This document shows positions 9,123 through 27,785 of a DNA stretch of 64,000 nt, one piece after another. The stretch spans positions 62,001-126,000 of the forward strand of contig JAPLAA010000101.1 of NCBI GenBank assembly GCA_026393475.1. Direction: 5' to 3'. The notes under the pieces are model-generated. The model was not told the origin of the DNA, did not search any database, and worked only from the letters and a program-made list of their open reading frames with translations. The stretch comes from Actinomycetota bacterium (GTDB lineage Bacteria; Actinomycetota; Acidimicrobiia; Acidimicrobiales; Ilumatobacteraceae). Made by a program: the position numbers and the translations under genes. Position 1 is the stretch's first letter, and each line of letters opens with the position of its first letter.

Positions 9123-10631
9123 GTGGCAGAGGTCGGGGAGAGGCCGTCGAGCGGTCCGGGTGCCGGCGACAAGCTCGGCGTTCTCGATCGTCGCCGCGTC
9201 GCCCTGCTGCTCTCGGCGCGCTACGGCGCGATCATCGCCATGGCGGCGAGCATCGTGGTCGCCGCGTTCCTGTATCCGCAGGACGAGTCGGGCACGATCA
9301 CCTGGTTGATCGTCCGCGTCGTCGTGTCGCTCGGGATGATCGCCGCGTACATCCACGTCGAGCGCGATGCCGCTGCCGATCCGGCACGGTCGATCACGAA
9401 GTTCTCGATCATCACCGGGTTCGGTGGCGTCGCCTGGGGCCTGTTGCCCGTGCTCGTGCGTCCCGAGCAGCCCGAGTGGCAGGCGATCATGCTCTTCGCC
9501 CTCGTCGGCAGCCTGAGCGTGCTGGCCTCGGGATGTTCGCCCGACCGGCGCGCCTTCCTGGCGGGTGCGCTCCCGGAGGTGCTGATCGGCCTGGTGGGCT
9601 TCGCCACCTTCGACGGCAGTTACTCGGTCGTGCTGTGTCTGTCGCTCGTGCTCGCAGCGATCTACGCCTACGTGATCTTCGCCGAGTCCAACCGTGTCCT
9701 CATGGCGTCGTTCGAGGCCGACCTGAAGAACGAGAACCTCGTCGTCGAACTCGAGCAGCACCGGGCCGACCTGCACGAGATCAACGAGCGCCTCCACGCC
9801 CTCGTCGAACGACAGTCGATGACGCTCGAGGAGCGCGACGCGCTCATCGCCGCCGTCTCTCACGACCTCCGCTCGCCCCTGGCCGCCGTCTCGCTGATGT
9901 CGCAGACGCTCGCGCAGCGGAGCTCGATGATGACCGAGGACCAGCGCCGGGAGATGGCCGAGCGGATCAGCGCCGACGCACGCCACACGGTGGAGGTGCT
10001 GGCCGATCTCGCATCAGCGCAGCGGCTCCGCGTGCAGGACGTCGCCGCCACCCGCAGCCCTGTCGATCTCTCTGCCCTGGTCGACGACGTCGTGCGGGCC
10101 CACCCCACCGAGACGCACCACGTCCGACGGGGTGACGTCGAGGTCGGTGACGGCCCCGTGACCGCCGACCGGGTCCTGGTGAGCCGCATCCTCGAGAACC
10201 TCGTCGCCAACGCGATCAAGCACACACCGCCCGGCACCGAAGTGGTCGTGGGCGCCTGCCGCTCGGGTGGCGACGTGCTCGTCCACGTCGACGACGACGG
10301 GCCCGGCCTGCCGGAACCGATCCAGGAGACCGTGTTCGACGCGTACGTGCGCGGCGCTGCGGCGACCGTGCGACCCGGCAGCGGGGTGGGGCTGTTCCTC
10401 GTGCGCACCTTCGCCCATCTGCACGGCGGGCGGGCCTGGTGGGAGCCGAGTGCCATCGGCGGCTCTCGATTCGTCGTGTCGCTGCCGCAGTCGCCCGCCG
10501 CCGACATCACCGACATCACCGACATCACCGACATCACCGACATCACCGACATCACCGACATCACCGACATCGCGGACGACGCAGGCGTCGGCCCCGGTCC
10601 GGCCGGGCCGGCGGCCCCCGTCGCTCAGTAG
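9123..10631 (+). CDS. Orphan membrane sensor histidine kinase
   Basis: A 502-residue kinase. About six hydrophobic segments occupy residues 25-195, including AIIAMAASIVVAAFLY and VVLCLSLVLAAIYAYVIF, with little periplasmic sequence, so the stimulus is probably sensed in or near the membrane. A coiled-coil follows, then the phospho-acceptor His in AAVSHDLRSPLAA, the N box NLVANAIKHTPPG and the G boxes DDGPGLP and GSGVGLFLVR. No response regulator is adjacent. The C-terminal tail is seven exact copies of Asp-Ile-Thr from a 9-base repeat. The GTG start follows TACAGT-N6. Confidence 0.88.
   Translation: MAEVGERPSSGPGAGDKLGVLDRRRVALLLSARYGAIIAMAASIVVAAFLYPQDESGTITWLIVRVVVSLGMIAAYIHVERDAAADPARSITKFSIITGFGGVAWGLLPVLVRPEQPEWQAIMLFALVGSLSVLASGCSPDRRAFLAGALPEVLIGLVGFATFDGSYSVVLCLSLVLAAIYAYVIFAESNRVLMASFEADLKNENLVVELEQHRADLHEINERLHALVERQSMTLEERDALIAAVSHDLRSPLAAVSLMSQTLAQRSSMMTEDQRREMAERISADARHTVEVLADLASAQRLRVQDVAATRSPVDLSALVDDVVRAHPTETHHVRRGDVEVGDGPVTADRVLVSRILENLVANAIKHTPPGTEVVVGACRSGGDVLVHVDDDGPGLPEPIQETVFDAYVRGAAATVRPGSGVGLFLVRTFAHLHGGRAWWEPSAIGGSRFVVSLPQSPAADITDITDITDITDITDITDITDIADDAGVGPGPAGPAAPVAQ
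10503..10571 (+). repeat. In-frame 9-base tandem repeat, seven copies
   Basis: GACATCACC occurs seven times (10503-10565) and is followed by a changed copy. It encodes (Asp-Ile-Thr)7 near the C-terminus of the sensor kinase. Every copy is identical at the DNA level, which points to recent slippage rather than selection on protein sequence. Confidence 0.95.
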
Positions 10632-14458: not shown

Positions 14459-14485
14459 CGATCGCCGATCGGTGACCGAGAGGGA

Positions 14486-14491
14486 TACGGT
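14486..14491 (+). promoter_or_regulatory. Leaderless -10 (TACGGT) of the FAD-linked oxidase
   Basis: TACGGT, seven bases, then GTG at 14499. It selects this codon over the in-frame GTG at 14472, nine codons upstream. Confidence 0.55.
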
Positions 14492-14498
14492 CGGCGGC

Positions 14499-15860
14499 GT
14501 GGATGCGGTGGTGCTGCGCGAGCTCGTCGACGTCGTCGGCTCGGCGCACGTGGTCACCGACCGCGACGTCGTGGCCACGCACGAGGTCGACTGGACCGGG
14601 CGGTTCCGCGGCTCGACGCCCGCCGTGGTGCGCCCGGCCGACACCGCCGAGGTGGCCGGCGTGCTCGACGTCTGTCGTCGTCACGGTGTGCCGGTGGTCC
14701 CCCAGGGCGGCAACACCGGGATGGTGGGCGGCGGCGTGCCGCTCGCCGGTGAACTCGTGCTCGATCTCCGCCGCCTCGACCACGTGGGCGAGGTCGATGT
14801 CGCTGCGAAGCAGATCACTGTCGGTGGGGGTGCGACCGTCGAGGCGGTACAGCAGGCGGCCGCAGCGGCGGGGCTCCGGTACGCGGTCGACTTCGGGGCA
14901 CGAGGCACTGCCACCATCGGCGGCTCGATCGCCACCAACGCCGGCGGCATCAACGTGCTCCGCTACGGCGGCACGCGCGAGCAGCTACTGGGCGTGGAAG
15001 CGGTGATGGGGACCGGCGAGGTCGTCAGCCGGTTGTCGGGCCTGCTCAAGGACAACACCGGCTATCACCTGGCGGGGTTGCTCTGCGGCAGCGAGGGCAC
15101 GCTCGGCATCGTGACCGCGGCACGACTCCGACTCGTCCCGGCACACGCACACACCGTCACGGCGTTCGTCGCATTCGAGTCGCTCGTCTCGGCGATCGCC
15201 GCCGTGTCCGGGTGGCGTTCCTCGCTCGACGTGCTCGACGCCGCCGAGATCGTGCTCCACGACGGCGTGGCGCTCGTGGCCTCGGCCTTCGGCTACTCGT
15301 TGCCGTTCGAGCGCCCGTGTCCCGCGTACGTCCTCGTGGAGGTCAGCGCCCACAGCGATCCCACCGATCTGCTCGCGGAGGCCGTTGCAGATGCAACGGG
15401 TGTGGTCGATGTAGCCGTCGCACACGACGCGGTGAGACGTGCGGTGCTCTGGCGCTATCGGGAGGAGCACACCGCGGCGATCAACACCGTCGGCGTGCCC
15501 CACAAGTTCGACGTCACCGTGCCGATCGCTGGTCTCGCCGAGTTCATGGCCACGGTGCCATCGGTGGTGCGCGCGGTCGAGCCCGACGCGGTCACGTGGC
15601 AGTTCGGTCATGTGGGCGACGGCAACATCCACGTCAACGTCACCGGGGCGGCGCCCGACGCCGACGCGCTCGACGAGCAGGTCTATCGGTACGTGGTGGC
15701 GTGCGGCGGCAGCATCAGCGCCGAGCACGGCATCGGCACCGCCAAGGCGAAGTGGCTGCCGTTGAACCGGTCGGCCGGCGAGCTCACCACCATGCGAGCG
15801 ATCAAACAGGCGCTCGACCCTGCCGGGATCATGAACCCGGGCGTGCTGTTCGCCCGATGA
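14499..15860 (+). CDS. FAD-linked oxidase, D-2-hydroxyacid dehydrogenase type (GlcD/D-LDH-like)
   Basis: A 453-residue member of the VAO/FAD_binding_4 family. The PQGGNTGMVGGGVP and GSIATNAGG segments form the FAD domain. The C-terminal substrate domain contains WQFGHVGDGNIHVNV and SAEHGIGTAKAKWL, where the conserved His residues bind metal and substrate in D-lactate, glycolate and D-2-hydroxyglutarate dehydrogenases. Which 2-hydroxyacid is used cannot be decided; no GlcE/GlcF partners are present, which favours a single-subunit enzyme. The stop codon lies in the first copy of a 14-base tandem repeat. Confidence 0.9.
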   Translation: MDAVVLRELVDVVGSAHVVTDRDVVATHEVDWTGRFRGSTPAVVRPADTAEVAGVLDVCRRHGVPVVPQGGNTGMVGGGVPLAGELVLDLRRLDHVGEVDVAAKQITVGGGATVEAVQQAAAAAGLRYAVDFGARGTATIGGSIATNAGGINVLRYGGTREQLLGVEAVMGTGEVVSRLSGLLKDNTGYHLAGLLCGSEGTLGIVTAARLRLVPAHAHTVTAFVAFESLVSAIAAVSGWRSSLDVLDAAEIVLHDGVALVASAFGYSLPFERPCPAYVLVEVSAHSDPTDLLAEAVADATGVVDVAVAHDAVRRAVLWRYREEHTAAINTVGVPHKFDVTVPIAGLAEFMATVPSVVRAVEPDAVTWQFGHVGDGNIHVNVTGAAPDADALDEQVYRYVVACGGSISAEHGIGTAKAKWLPLNRSAGELTTMRAIKQALDPAGIMNPGVLFAR

Positions 15861-15938
15861 GTGTCGCCCGATGAGTGTCGCCCGATGAGTGTCGCCCGAT
15901 GAGTGTCGCCCGATGAGTGTCGCCCGATGACCGCGCCC
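15855..15938. repeat. 14-base tandem repeat carrying the stop codon, five copies plus a degenerate sixth
   Basis: The unit CGATGAGTGTCGCC occurs five times from 15855 to 15924, with a degraded copy to 15938. The oxidase stop TGA (15858-15860) is inside copy 1. Because 14 is not a multiple of three, the repeated TGAs fall in all three frames. Confidence 0.95.
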
Positions 15939-15948
15939 GAGCGGATGA

Positions 15949-16458
15949 TCAGGCGATGAAGGCGGCCAGCTTGTCGAGGGTCTGACCGCCGAGCTCGACC
16001 GCGCCGAAGCCGATGCCGTTGAGCCGTTGCTCGACGGTGGGGTGCAGTTGGCGCAGGCTCAACACCGTCTTGCCGTCCTGCTGGGAGTCGAAGGTGAGGG
16101 TGACGCGGAAGCGTTCGGGGTCGTCGTCGATGTCGGAGCCGTGGTCGAACACGATCCGCACGTCCTGCACGATCTCGAGGAACTCGATCCGGCTCGGCCA
16201 GGACTCGCCCGCCGGGCCGAACATGTCGAACCGCCAGCGACCGCCCACGCGCGCCTCGAACTCGTGGGTGGTGCACCCGTACCCGTGGGGGCCGAACCAC
16301 TCGCCGATCGTCGGTGACGTGAACGCGGCGAAGACGCGTTCACGAGGTGCGGCGATGACGCGGGTGAGCACGATCTCCCGATCGAGCGACCACGTCTCGA
16401 GCGGGGAACCGCCCGACGGCTCGGGCGAGGTGTTGACGGCGGTGGTGGGCTGGGTCAT
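15949..16458 (-). CDS. SRPBCC (AHSA1-like) domain protein
   Basis: A 169-residue START/Bet v1-like protein of the AHSA1 group. It contains the typical EIVLTRVIAAPRERVFAAFTS opening and the EWFGPHGY and GGRWRFDMFGP segments. These proteins have a hydrophobic pocket, and their individual roles are mostly unknown. Its ATG overlaps the stop of the upstream ArsR gene by four bases (16455-16458). ArsR/SRPBCC pairs of this kind are widespread in actinobacteria, and the regulator probably controls the SRPBCC gene directly. Confidence 0.9.
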   Translation of the reverse strand: MTQPTTAVNTSPEPSGGSPLETWSLDREIVLTRVIAAPRERVFAAFTSPTIGEWFGPHGYGCTTHEFEARVGGRWRFDMFGPAGESWPSRIEFLEIVQDVRIVFDHGSDIDDDPERFRVTLTFDSQQDGKTVLSLRQLHPTVEQRLNGIGFGAVELGGQTLDKLAAFIA

Positions 16459-16871
16459 GACGGGGTTCCCTTCGAGGGTGTGTCGGTACGGGGTTCGGCG
16501 TCGCCGTGGTCACCGGCGGTCGGGTCGGTGGCGAGGAACTGCTCGAGGCGGTCGAGTCGCTGTTCCCACGCCGAACGGGTGTGGACGACGTAGCGGCCCA
16601 TGGCATCGAGCGCGTCGAGGCGGAGCCGGCACGGCCGTCGCTGGGCGTCGCGGCCACGGCTGATGAGACCGGCCTGTTCGAGCACCTTCAGGTGCCGACT
16701 GATCGCCGGCAGGCTGATCGCGAACGGGGCGGCGAGCTGGTTGACGCTGCACTCACCCTCGGCGAGTCGGCTGACGATGGCGCGCCGGGTGGGATCGGCG
16801 AGGGCAGCGAAGGCACGGTCGAGATCGATCTCGCGTCGGTCGCCGCGTTCGAGCAGGCCGGTGTCTGCCAT
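16455..16871 (-). CDS. ArsR-family transcriptional regulator
   Basis: A 138-residue winged-helix regulator. The domain runs from about residue 18 to 100, with RAFAALADPTRRAIVSRLAEG, the recognition helix in ISLPAISRHLKVLEQAGLI and the wing RGRDAQRRPCRLR. No metal-binding CxC pair is seen, so it probably does not sense arsenic; it matches the metal-free subgroup that pairs with SRPBCC proteins. A good GGGAGGA ribosome site precedes the ATG. The promoter contains a 16-base inverted repeat (16894-16909) next to the -10, which implies autorepression. Confidence 0.92.
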   Translation of the reverse strand: MADTGLLERGDRREIDLDRAFAALADPTRRAIVSRLAEGECSVNQLAAPFAISLPAISRHLKVLEQAGLISRGRDAQRRPCRLRLDALDAMGRYVVHTRSAWEQRLDRLEQFLATDPTAGDHGDAEPRTDTPSKGTPS

Positions 16872-18395: not shown

Positions 18396-18448
18396 CCGGA
18401 CCTCCCGGACCTCCCGGACCACCCGGACCACCCGGACGACCCGGACCA
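18396..18448. repeat. 9-base tandem repeat directly after a stop codon
   Basis: CCGGACCTC/CCGGACCAC-type units run for nearly six copies from the base after the oxygenase stop (18395). They fill over half of the 91-base gap to the HD gene. Confidence 0.9.
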
Positions 18449-18486: not shown

Positions 18487-19062
18487 ATGAGCACCACACA
18501 GGTCGCCTTCACCCAGATGAAGGACGGCACCAAGGCCGAGTACGAGTACCTCCACGGGCTCGAGGCGCAGTACATCGCACGCACGCCCGACCGGATCATC
18601 GAGAGCCTCCGCCGCCTCGGCGGCGGCCTCGAGGGCTACCAGGTCAGTCGTTACGAGCACTCGTTGCAGAGCGCCACGCGGGCCGAGGCCGACGGCGCCG
18701 ACATCGAGATGATCGTCGCCGCGCTCGTGCACGACATCGGTGACGAACTCGCCCCGGAGAACCACTCGCAGCTCGCGGCCGCGATCATCCGGCCCTACGT
18801 CCGCGCCGAGGTCACCTGGGTCGTCAACATGCACGGCATCTTCCAGCAGCTGTACTACGGCCACCACGTGGGCATCGATCCGAACGCCCGCGACGCCTAT
18901 CGCGACCACCCGTGGTTCGACAGCTGCGCGACGTTCTGCGAGCGGTGGGACCAGGCGTCGTTCGACCCGACCTATCCGACGAAGCCGCTCGAACACTTCG
19001 AGCCCATGCTGCGCGACGTGTTCTCCCGGCACCCGTTCGACCCGGCCATCACCGGGGAGTGA
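18487..19062 (+). CDS. HD-domain protein, likely mixed-valent diiron oxygenase (TmpB/PhnZ-like)
   Basis: A 191-residue HD-domain protein. All six expected diiron ligands can be placed: H58 in YEHSLQ, H82/D83 in LVHDIGD, H93 in ENHSQL, H116 in VNMHGIF and D155 in CERWDQASFDP. The 24-residue gap between the first two His matches PhnZ, so an oxygenase related to PhnZ, TmpB and myo-inositol oxygenase is more likely than a phosphohydrolase. It lacks the PhnZ Tyr/Glu pair ten and seven residues before the first His; here those are Leu48 and Tyr51. It is 91 bases behind the TmpA-like gene with an AGGAA ribosome site. The stop is in a 14-base duplication. Confidence 0.75.
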   Translation: MSTTQVAFTQMKDGTKAEYEYLHGLEAQYIARTPDRIIESLRRLGGGLEGYQVSRYEHSLQSATRAEADGADIEMIVAALVHDIGDELAPENHSQLAAAIIRPYVRAEVTWVVNMHGIFQQLYYGHHVGIDPNARDAYRDHPWFDSCATFCERWDQASFDPTYPTKPLEHFEPMLRDVFSRHPFDPAITGE

Positions 19063-19075
19063 TCACGGGGGAGTG
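19048..19075. repeat. 14-base duplication spanning a stop codon
   Basis: ATCACCGGGGAGTG (19048-19061) is followed at once by the same sequence with one change (19062-19075). The HD-gene stop TGA (19060-19062) spans the junction, and a second TGA follows copy 2. Confidence 0.85.
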
Positions 19076-19089
19076 ACCCGTGCCCGCAC

Positions 19090-19132: not shown

Positions 19133-20137
19133 ATGCGGACCACGCTCGCCGAACTGCTCGCCACCACGGACGTCGTCCTCGCCGATGGCGCCACCGGCAC
19201 CAACTTCTTCCAGCGCGGCCTCATGGCGGGTCACGCGCCCGAGCTGTGGAACCACGAGCACCCCGAGCACGTCCGGTGGCTGCATCAGCAGTTCGTCGAT
19301 GCCGGTGCCGACATCATCCTCACGAACTCCTTCGGCGGCACGGCCCAGCGGCTCAAGCTCCACCACGCCCAGGACCGCGTCGTCGAAATCAACCGTCGCG
19401 CCGCCGAACTCGCCCGTGAGATCGCCGACGCAGCCGATCGCCCGGTCGTGGTGGCCGGCTCCGTCGGCCCCACCGGCGAGCTGTTCGAGCCGCTCGGTGC
19501 CCTCACCGAGGACGTCGCGATCGCCAGCTTCCGCGAGCAGATCCAGGGCCTGAAGGAAGGTGGCGTCGACGTCATCTGGATCGAGACCATGTCGTCGGTC
19601 GAGGAGGTGCGCGCCGCATCGAAGGCAGCGATCGCCGAGGGCATGCCGTACACGGCGACCTGCTCGTTCGACACCGCCGGCCGCACGATGATGGGCGTGA
19701 TGCCCGATGCGCTCGTGCGTGCCTTCGACGGCCTCGAGGTCGCGCCGCTGGCCTTCGGTGCCAACTGCGGCGTCGGCGCGAGCGACATCCTCGTCACCGT
19801 GTTGTCGATGTGCTCCGGCGAGCACAGCGCGGTCATCTCGAAGGGCAACTGCGGCATCCCGCAGTTCCAAGGCACCGAGATCGTCTACTCGGGCACGCCC
19901 GAGCTGATGGCGAGCTACGCCCAGATGGCGGCGGACGCGGGGGCGCGGATCGTCGGCGGGTGCTGTGGCACCTCGCCCGAGCACCTCGCGTCGATGCGCC
20001 GGGCGCTCGATGCCCGCGTCGCCGGGCCTGCACCGACGATCGAGGAGATCGTCGAGCGCATCGGGCCGCTCACCAACTCGGCGCCCACCGCGAACGCCGA
20101 GGGCGATCGCGGTCGCCGTCGCAGCCGCCGAGACTGA
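19133..20137 (+). CDS. Betaine-homocysteine S-methyltransferase-like protein
   Basis: A 334-residue zinc enzyme of the homocysteine S-methyltransferase family. It has LADGATGTNFFQRGL, TNSFGGTAQRLKLH and VAGSVGPTGELFEPLG. The three zinc cysteines are in GANCGVG and GGCCGTSPEHL. Length and motifs follow the single-domain bacterial betaine-homocysteine methyltransferases (rhizobial Bmt type) rather than full MetH. The expected reaction moves a methyl from glycine betaine to homocysteine, giving dimethylglycine and methionine. It sits behind two genes that may produce glycine betaine. The methyl donor is inferred from family likeness and context. Confidence 0.82.
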   Translation: MRTTLAELLATTDVVLADGATGTNFFQRGLMAGHAPELWNHEHPEHVRWLHQQFVDAGADIILTNSFGGTAQRLKLHHAQDRVVEINRRAAELAREIADAADRPVVVAGSVGPTGELFEPLGALTEDVAIASFREQIQGLKEGGVDVIWIETMSSVEEVRAASKAAIAEGMPYTATCSFDTAGRTMMGVMPDALVRAFDGLEVAPLAFGANCGVGASDILVTVLSMCSGEHSAVISKGNCGIPQFQGTEIVYSGTPELMASYAQMAADAGARIVGGCCGTSPEHLASMRRALDARVAGPAPTIEEIVERIGPLTNSAPTANAEGDRGRRRSRRD

Positions 20138-20145
20138 TCCCGACC

Positions 20146-20175
20146 GATCGCCACTGATCGCCACTGATCGCCACC
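20146..20175. repeat. 10-base tandem repeat after a stop codon
   Basis: GATCGCCACT is present three times (third copy ends in C), starting eight bases after the methyltransferase stop. Confidence 0.85.
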
Positions 20176-26975: not shown

Positions 26976-27749
26976 ATGCAGATCTCACTCGACGGCAAGG
27001 TCGCGCTGGTCACCGGCGCATCGAAGGGCATCGGCAAGGCCATCGCCACCACCCTCGCGACGAGCGGGGCGAAGGTGATGCTCGCCTCGCGCAAGATCGA
27101 TCAGCTGCAGGCCGCGGCGGCCGAGATCGCCGCTGCCGGCGCAGCAGCCGGTGTCCCGGTCGACACCGAGGTGTTCGTGGCGAACGTCGGTGATCTCGAC
27201 GCGGCACAGGCCTGCGTGTCGGCCACCGTCGAACGGTTCGGATCGGTCGACATCCTCGTCAACAACGCGGCGACGAACCCGTACTTCGGCGCCACGCTCG
27301 GCGTCGACAGCGCCCGCTACGACAAGACCTTCCAGGTGAACCTGAAGGGCCCGTTGTTCTGGACCCAGGCGGTGTGGGAGGCCGGGTTGAAGGAGCGTCC
27401 GGGCGTGATCGTCAACGTCGCCTCCGTCGGTGGCCTCCGTGCCGAAGGCGGCCTCGGTGTCTACAACCTCACCAAGGCGGCGCTGATCCACCTGACGCGG
27501 CAACTCGCCAGCGAGCTCGGGCCCACCCGGGTCGTCGGCGTGGCCCCGGGCCTCGTGCAGACCGACTTCGCGGCGTTCCTCGTCGACAACTTCGGCGACA
27601 AGCTCGCGGCGCAACTGCCGCTGAAGCGCCTCGGCGATCCGCAGGACATCGCCAACCTGGTGACGTTCCTCGTGAGCGATGCGGCATCGTGGATCACCGG
27701 TGAGACCTACGTGATCGACGGCGGGGCGGGCGTCCGCGGCGTCGCCTGA
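26976..27749 (+). CDS. SDR-family oxidoreductase
   Basis: A 257-residue classical short-chain dehydrogenase. The cofactor motif TGASKGIG is near residue 14, ASRK follows strand 2 (NADP preference likely), NNAA is near 98, and the catalytic set is VNVASVGG plus YNLTKAA. The ending GETYVIDGGAGVRG fits 3-oxoacyl reductase-like members. It is monocistronic with its own -10. The stop lies in a 14-base duplication, and the MFS gene converges from the other strand. Confidence 0.88.
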   Translation: MQISLDGKVALVTGASKGIGKAIATTLATSGAKVMLASRKIDQLQAAAAEIAAAGAAAGVPVDTEVFVANVGDLDAAQACVSATVERFGSVDILVNNAATNPYFGATLGVDSARYDKTFQVNLKGPLFWTQAVWEAGLKERPGVIVNVASVGGLRAEGGLGVYNLTKAALIHLTRQLASELGPTRVVGVAPGLVQTDFAAFLVDNFGDKLAAQLPLKRLGDPQDIANLVTFLVSDAASWITGETYVIDGGAGVRGVA

Positions 27750-27770
27750 TCACGAGCGCCTGATCGCGAG
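27743..27770. repeat. 14-base duplication carrying a stop codon
   Basis: CGCCTGATCACGAG (27743-27756) is followed directly by the same unit with one change. The SDR stop TGA (27747-27749) is in copy 1 and is repeated in copy 2 in another frame. Confidence 0.85.
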
Positions 27771-27785
27771 CGACCGGTCGAGCGT

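Follow-up and report, generated by a model that had tools for sequence, protein, structure and literature searches.

The locus described here raises the question of why a perfect tandem array with a stop codon in every copy should lie over the end of a gene, and whether these additional stops do anything for it. In the window, by which we mean the whole 64,000-nucleotide stretch of DNA analyzed, the plus strand encodes a FAD-linked oxidase of 462 residues (FAD_binding_4 and FAD-oxidase_C; 14472–15860), whose TGA (15858–15860) falls inside the first copy of an array of the unit TCGCCCGATGAGTG (15850–15930, plus strand; 5.8 copies, 100% identity). Its 81 bases comprise five full TCGCCCGATGAGTG copies and 11 bases of a sixth. 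The original prediction had placed five exact 14-base copies from the oxidase stop onward; the array proved real and exact, with the corrections that it runs to 5.8 copies and starts 8 bases 5' of the TGA, within the last codons. Six TGAs (15858, 15872, 15886, 15900, 15914 and 15928) follow each other at 14-base spacing and, as had been foreseen, block every frame of the plus strand, whereas the minus strand of the array has a stop in no frame. TGAs occur in all frames because each unit brings along the stop of the gene and its 14-base length is not divisible by three. Likewise correct was the expectation of a convergent SRPBCC gene downstream: an AHSA1-type gene with a Pfam match to PF08327 lies on the minus strand (15949–16458), its end 18 bases past the array, and the AHSA1 family belongs to the SRPBCC superfamily.

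The array is beyond chance. The longest exact self-match in the window at lag 14 spans 67 bases, compared to 7–23 bases at the lags from 6 to 40 once 9, 14 and multiples of either are set aside. No second site with two consecutive exact TCGCCCGATGAGTG copies exists in the genome assembly (G000; 136 contigs, 4.49 Mb, 93.6% complete), so that, judged by exact double copies, the array has a single locus. A further consequence of the 14-base unit is a chain of overlapping mini reading frames linked by ATGA on the plus strand (15857–15959), encoding MSVAR and then MTAPERMIRR, each followed by a stop; these frames showed no sign of use.

The comparison set included four further genomes of the same genus. 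The sister species (G001) has both genes, with 93% identity for the oxidase and 92% for the convergent gene, but the spacer between them measures 59 bases, against 88 bases here. There, a degenerate array with a 14-base unit (1.9 copies) overlies the oxidase stop, and a 15-base duplication is present separately; the 14-base period common to the two loci may reflect inheritance or coincidence. From 99 oxidase loci used as input we obtained 88 distinct ones with a readable stop, and in only three of these (L002, which is the sister species, L003 and L012) does an array touch the oxidase stop or start at most 30 nt after it, each time with a different unit. The remaining 85 have no array at the oxidase stop. 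The array of L012 (G012:C7), a distant relative, is a perfect 16-base repeat of 3.2 copies located 3–54 bases past the stop.

Short tandem arrays were catalogued with Tandem Repeats Finder (score 60, match 90%, period 6–60). In 884,613 bases of G000, spacers contained 38 arrays (0.398 per kb) and coding sequence contained 30 (0.038 per kb). The periods of the coding arrays are multiples of three in 29 of 30 cases, and those of the spacer arrays are spread over the remainders 0, 1 and 2 as 11, 14 and 13. Markov-shuffled sequence from a 576,774-base subset (five spacer shuffles, one coding shuffle) gave zero arrays. Genes were called by a simple codon-usage script, and some spacers may therefore contain missed genes. 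Contigs without a called gene were dropped (C12 and C38 of G000, C13 and C15 of G001, and perhaps others, silently, in later array counts), and because neither the copy-number threshold nor the treatment of overlapping arrays was the same throughout, counts vary by a few arrays. For G001, 8 spacer arrays (0.154 per kb) came from the first 386,547 bases; since an additional 301,645 bases gave 16 arrays in 32.4 kb of spacer, this species is not clearly poorer in arrays than G000. Small samples of other genomes contained 3 (G002, 0.374 per kb), 2 (G016, 0.167), 2 (G022, 0.139), 1 (G011, 0.178) and 1 (G026, 0.042) spacer arrays.

The median protein identity between the two sister species is 95.8% (86 reciprocal best pairs). 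Under a looser filter, 48 orthologous spacers of contigs C21 (G000) and C39 (G001) could be sorted into 4 with an array in both species, 6 with one only in G000, 2 with one only in G001 and 36 with none. The same unit was found in just one of the four spacers with arrays in both, and we therefore conclude that array units turn over between close species.

Several individual arrays were noticed along the way. At 18396–18448, a 9-base array of CCGGACCAC (5.9 copies, 93%) starts at the first base past the stop of a TauD-type gene, and the orthologous spacer of G001 holds a different, 13-base array. Arrays at 19048–19076 (14 bases), 20133–20174 (10 bases) and 27743–27772 (14 bases) lie over the stops of genes ending at 19062, 20137 and 27749, respectively; under the same filter, the orthologous G001 spacers have no array. 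Within a histidine kinase gene, 7.9 perfect copies of the 9-base unit CCGACATCA (10501–10571) form an in-frame three-residue repeat. Elsewhere in the genome, a perfect 38-base array of 3.3 copies (G000:C117:47713-47836, in L041) covers the stop of a minus-strand gene.

How strongly arrays appear to cluster at stops depends on the null model. A whole gene stop lies inside 10 of the 38 spacer arrays of G000 (4.4 expected from random placement, P = 0.003) and inside 4 of the 8 of G001 (0.7 expected, P = 0.004), while a start codon lies inside 0 of 38 and 1 of 8. With uniform placement over all spacers, which is a cruder null, 27 of 84 arrays cover a stop where 8.6 are expected, and 17 of 84 begin 0–9 nt past a stop where 3.8 are expected. 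We prefer a null in which each array is collapsed to one unit, kept in its own spacer and placed only where proteins stay unchanged. Over all spacers, the stop-covering arrays then number 26 of 79, where 18.1 would be expected (P = 0.012); the excess lies in tandem spacers (9 observed, 2.7 expected), whereas convergent spacers have 16 stop-covering arrays against 15.4 expected. The clustering of arrays at stops, which looks very strong under the cruder null, thus shrinks under the own-spacer null and vanishes in convergent spacers. A preference for 3' ends beyond uniform neutrality is nevertheless indicated by the overall excess and its concentration in tandem spacers. Among spacers of up to 400 bases in G000 and G001, arrays are found in 30 of 281 convergent, 32 of 1069 tandem and 17 of 272 divergent ones. 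Convergent spacers are short, lack start codons and have the highest array frequency; together with their agreement with uniform placement, this is enough to account for the oxidase locus.

The original prediction saw in the array a translation barrier before the convergent gene. As a selected trait, the shifting TGAs would halt ribosomes that pass the oxidase stop by readthrough or frameshifting, ahead of that gene. All three plus-strand frames are closed within 39 nt of the stop, as in only 1.4% of 774 genes, and among 27 stop-covering arrays the number of sense frames closed is three in 17, two in 3 and one in 7, with every antisense frame left open in 24. Such closure is expected, however, where the unit includes a gene's stop and has a length not divisible by three, and an array over a real stop carries sense stops by construction. 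Comparison with a site reduced to one copy speaks against a selected barrier: downstream of the oxidase TGA, the next stops in frames 0, +1 and +2 lie at 39, 25 and 11 nt with the array and at 15, 52 and 26 nt with one copy (93, 67 and 23 nt in G001). A single copy therefore closes all frames within 52 nt, nearly equalling the array, and is better in frame 0, the frame used by readthrough. For the convergent gene, whose strand meets no stop within the array, the effect is mixed, as the array brings its next frame 0 stop nearer (117 nt, against 891 nt for one copy) and puts the other two farther away (961 and 263 nt, against 193 and 47 nt). The array is also not conserved in relatives, arrays in convergent spacers cover stops as uniform placement predicts, and a systematic test across eubacteria is reported to have turned up no compelling evidence that additional stops are under selection (PMC6764699). 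The barrier is thus not borne out, and we regard it as very unlikely. A weak effect of the array's stops may exist, given the rarity of such rapid closure among the 774 genes and a tendency of stop-covering arrays away from multiples of three.

This tendency is what a frame-closing role predicts. Under the strict filter, periods divisible by three occur in 3 of 26 stop-covering arrays but in 25 of the 56 other arrays in spacers (Fisher P = 0.003); under the looser filter the counts are 8 of 50 against 55 of 126 (P = 0.0005), and 3 of 27 differs from one third with P = 0.013. Yet the deficit was first noticed on 14 arrays (0 of 14) that are included in these pooled counts. On fresh stretches alone there is no significant difference, neither for 3 of 12 stop-covering against 14 of 26 other arrays (P = 0.16; against one third, P = 0.76) nor, with the looser filter, for 5 of 19 against 22 of 52 (P = 0.28), and other genomes and loci contributed a tiny sample of three stop-covering arrays, one of them a multiple of three. 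Moreover, unrecognized coding arrays among the other spacer arrays may exist and would raise their share of multiples of three. A genus-wide version of the barrier, in which stops would be preferred birth sites of minisatellites and arrays that are not multiples of three would be kept more often and so close every reading frame, yielding a self-made and fast-evolving translation barrier, strikes us as quite improbable.

Two further roles would act through the transcript. As a 3'-end RNA element, the transcribed array would form a hairpin with a role in transcription termination or in protecting the oxidase mRNA. The plus strand of 15840–15960 does fold better than shuffled sequences (z = −2.4; 5 of 200 shuffles as good) and the minus strand does not (z = −0.1), but the array alone reaches only z = −1.0, and across 38 spacer arrays, both strands considered, z ranges from −4.4 to 3.3, with 28% below −2. 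Within 15400–16500 we found no promoter-like site and no site resembling an intrinsic terminator (G+C-rich stem followed by a T run). The sole Rfam match in 15600–16200 is located outside the array and, at 14 bits, falls far short of the cut-off of 50. We give such an element scant credence. Alternatively, the array could work as a re-initiation chain, its overlapping ATGA steps passing ribosomes between five-codon frames, in the way proposed for the coupling by mycobacterial MIRUs. The unit indeed reads ATG-AGT-GTC-GCC-CGA-TGA, its TGA overlapped by the ATG of the following frame, and MIRUs have been described as coupled with −4 spacing (PMC12548453). The next gene is convergent, however, so that no co-directional gene would be served, and a sense-strand ATGA occurs in only 2 of 27 stop-covering arrays, making this role extremely improbable. 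Barrier, hairpin or terminator, and re-initiation functions were all tested for the array and are unsupported.

The array is very probably a lineage-specific minisatellite that leaves the protein unchanged. It would have arisen by tandem duplication of a 14-base segment spanning the 3' end of the oxidase gene with its stop, followed by an expansion for which replication slippage is the most likely mechanism, and the result appears to be neutral. With the last codons and the true stop preserved in the first copy, added copies leave the protein unaffected, and arrays are therefore tolerated at this place. That the expansion was recent, another part of the original prediction, is supported by the exactness of the copies and by the absence of the array from the sister species. 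The repair genes, too, speak for a minisatellite: none of six genomes, G000 included, has a match to MutS_V, and all six, again with G000, have a match to NucS. The NucS pathway has been described as not correcting short indels (PMC8228993). Classical mismatch repair, for its part, would probably miss loops of 14 bases as well.

Nothing we found shows a job for the extra stops of this array, which is one of many short repeat arrays in the genome, and the oxidase locus itself is of little significance. More broadly, the many unrelated minisatellites at or over stops in this actinobacterial lineage, in which NucS but no MutS was detected, could be useful as strain markers and for testing where slippage products survive.

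In its architecture the array agrees with bacterial minisatellites or VNTRs, that is, head-to-tail, near-identical units of about 10–60 bases. It resembles the VNTRs of Burkholderia pseudomallei (PMC1853098) in consisting of short head-to-tail units in a set that is mostly intergenic and whose coding members are mostly multiples of three. It differs in that many of the B. pseudomallei arrays have duplicates at other sites and differ from isolate to isolate, whereas TCGCCCGATGAGTG is found at one locus, in the one strain examined. We found no literature on Acidimicrobiia with tandem repeats.

The TAACTGA repeats of marine Beggiatoaceae (PMC4679880) share with the array a unit length that is not a multiple of three and stops in three frames on one strand; the array, like them, overlaps a stop codon. 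They have, however, a 7-base unit in 169 dispersed sets, which in the tabulated examples considered lie mostly toward start codons, in contrast to the 14-base TCGCCCGATGAGTG unit at a single locus. The MIRUs (PMC12548453) also offer an ATGA-type overlap that could couple translation, but are presented as apparently mobile elements that insert at start codons. Here, exact double copies of TCGCCCGATGAGTG occur only at the oxidase locus, over a stop, and the ATGA is followed by a convergent gene and not by a co-directional one to which it could be coupled. Additional or tandem stop codons (PMC6764699, PMC1088959) likewise place extra stops past the true one; they have been reported as selected in yeasts, not in eubacteria, and the array, which moves the nearest in-frame extra stop from 15 to 39 nt, does not bring a fail-safe stop nearer. 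Intergenic minisatellites are already known in bacteria, and the TCGCCCGATGAGTG array adds another instance.
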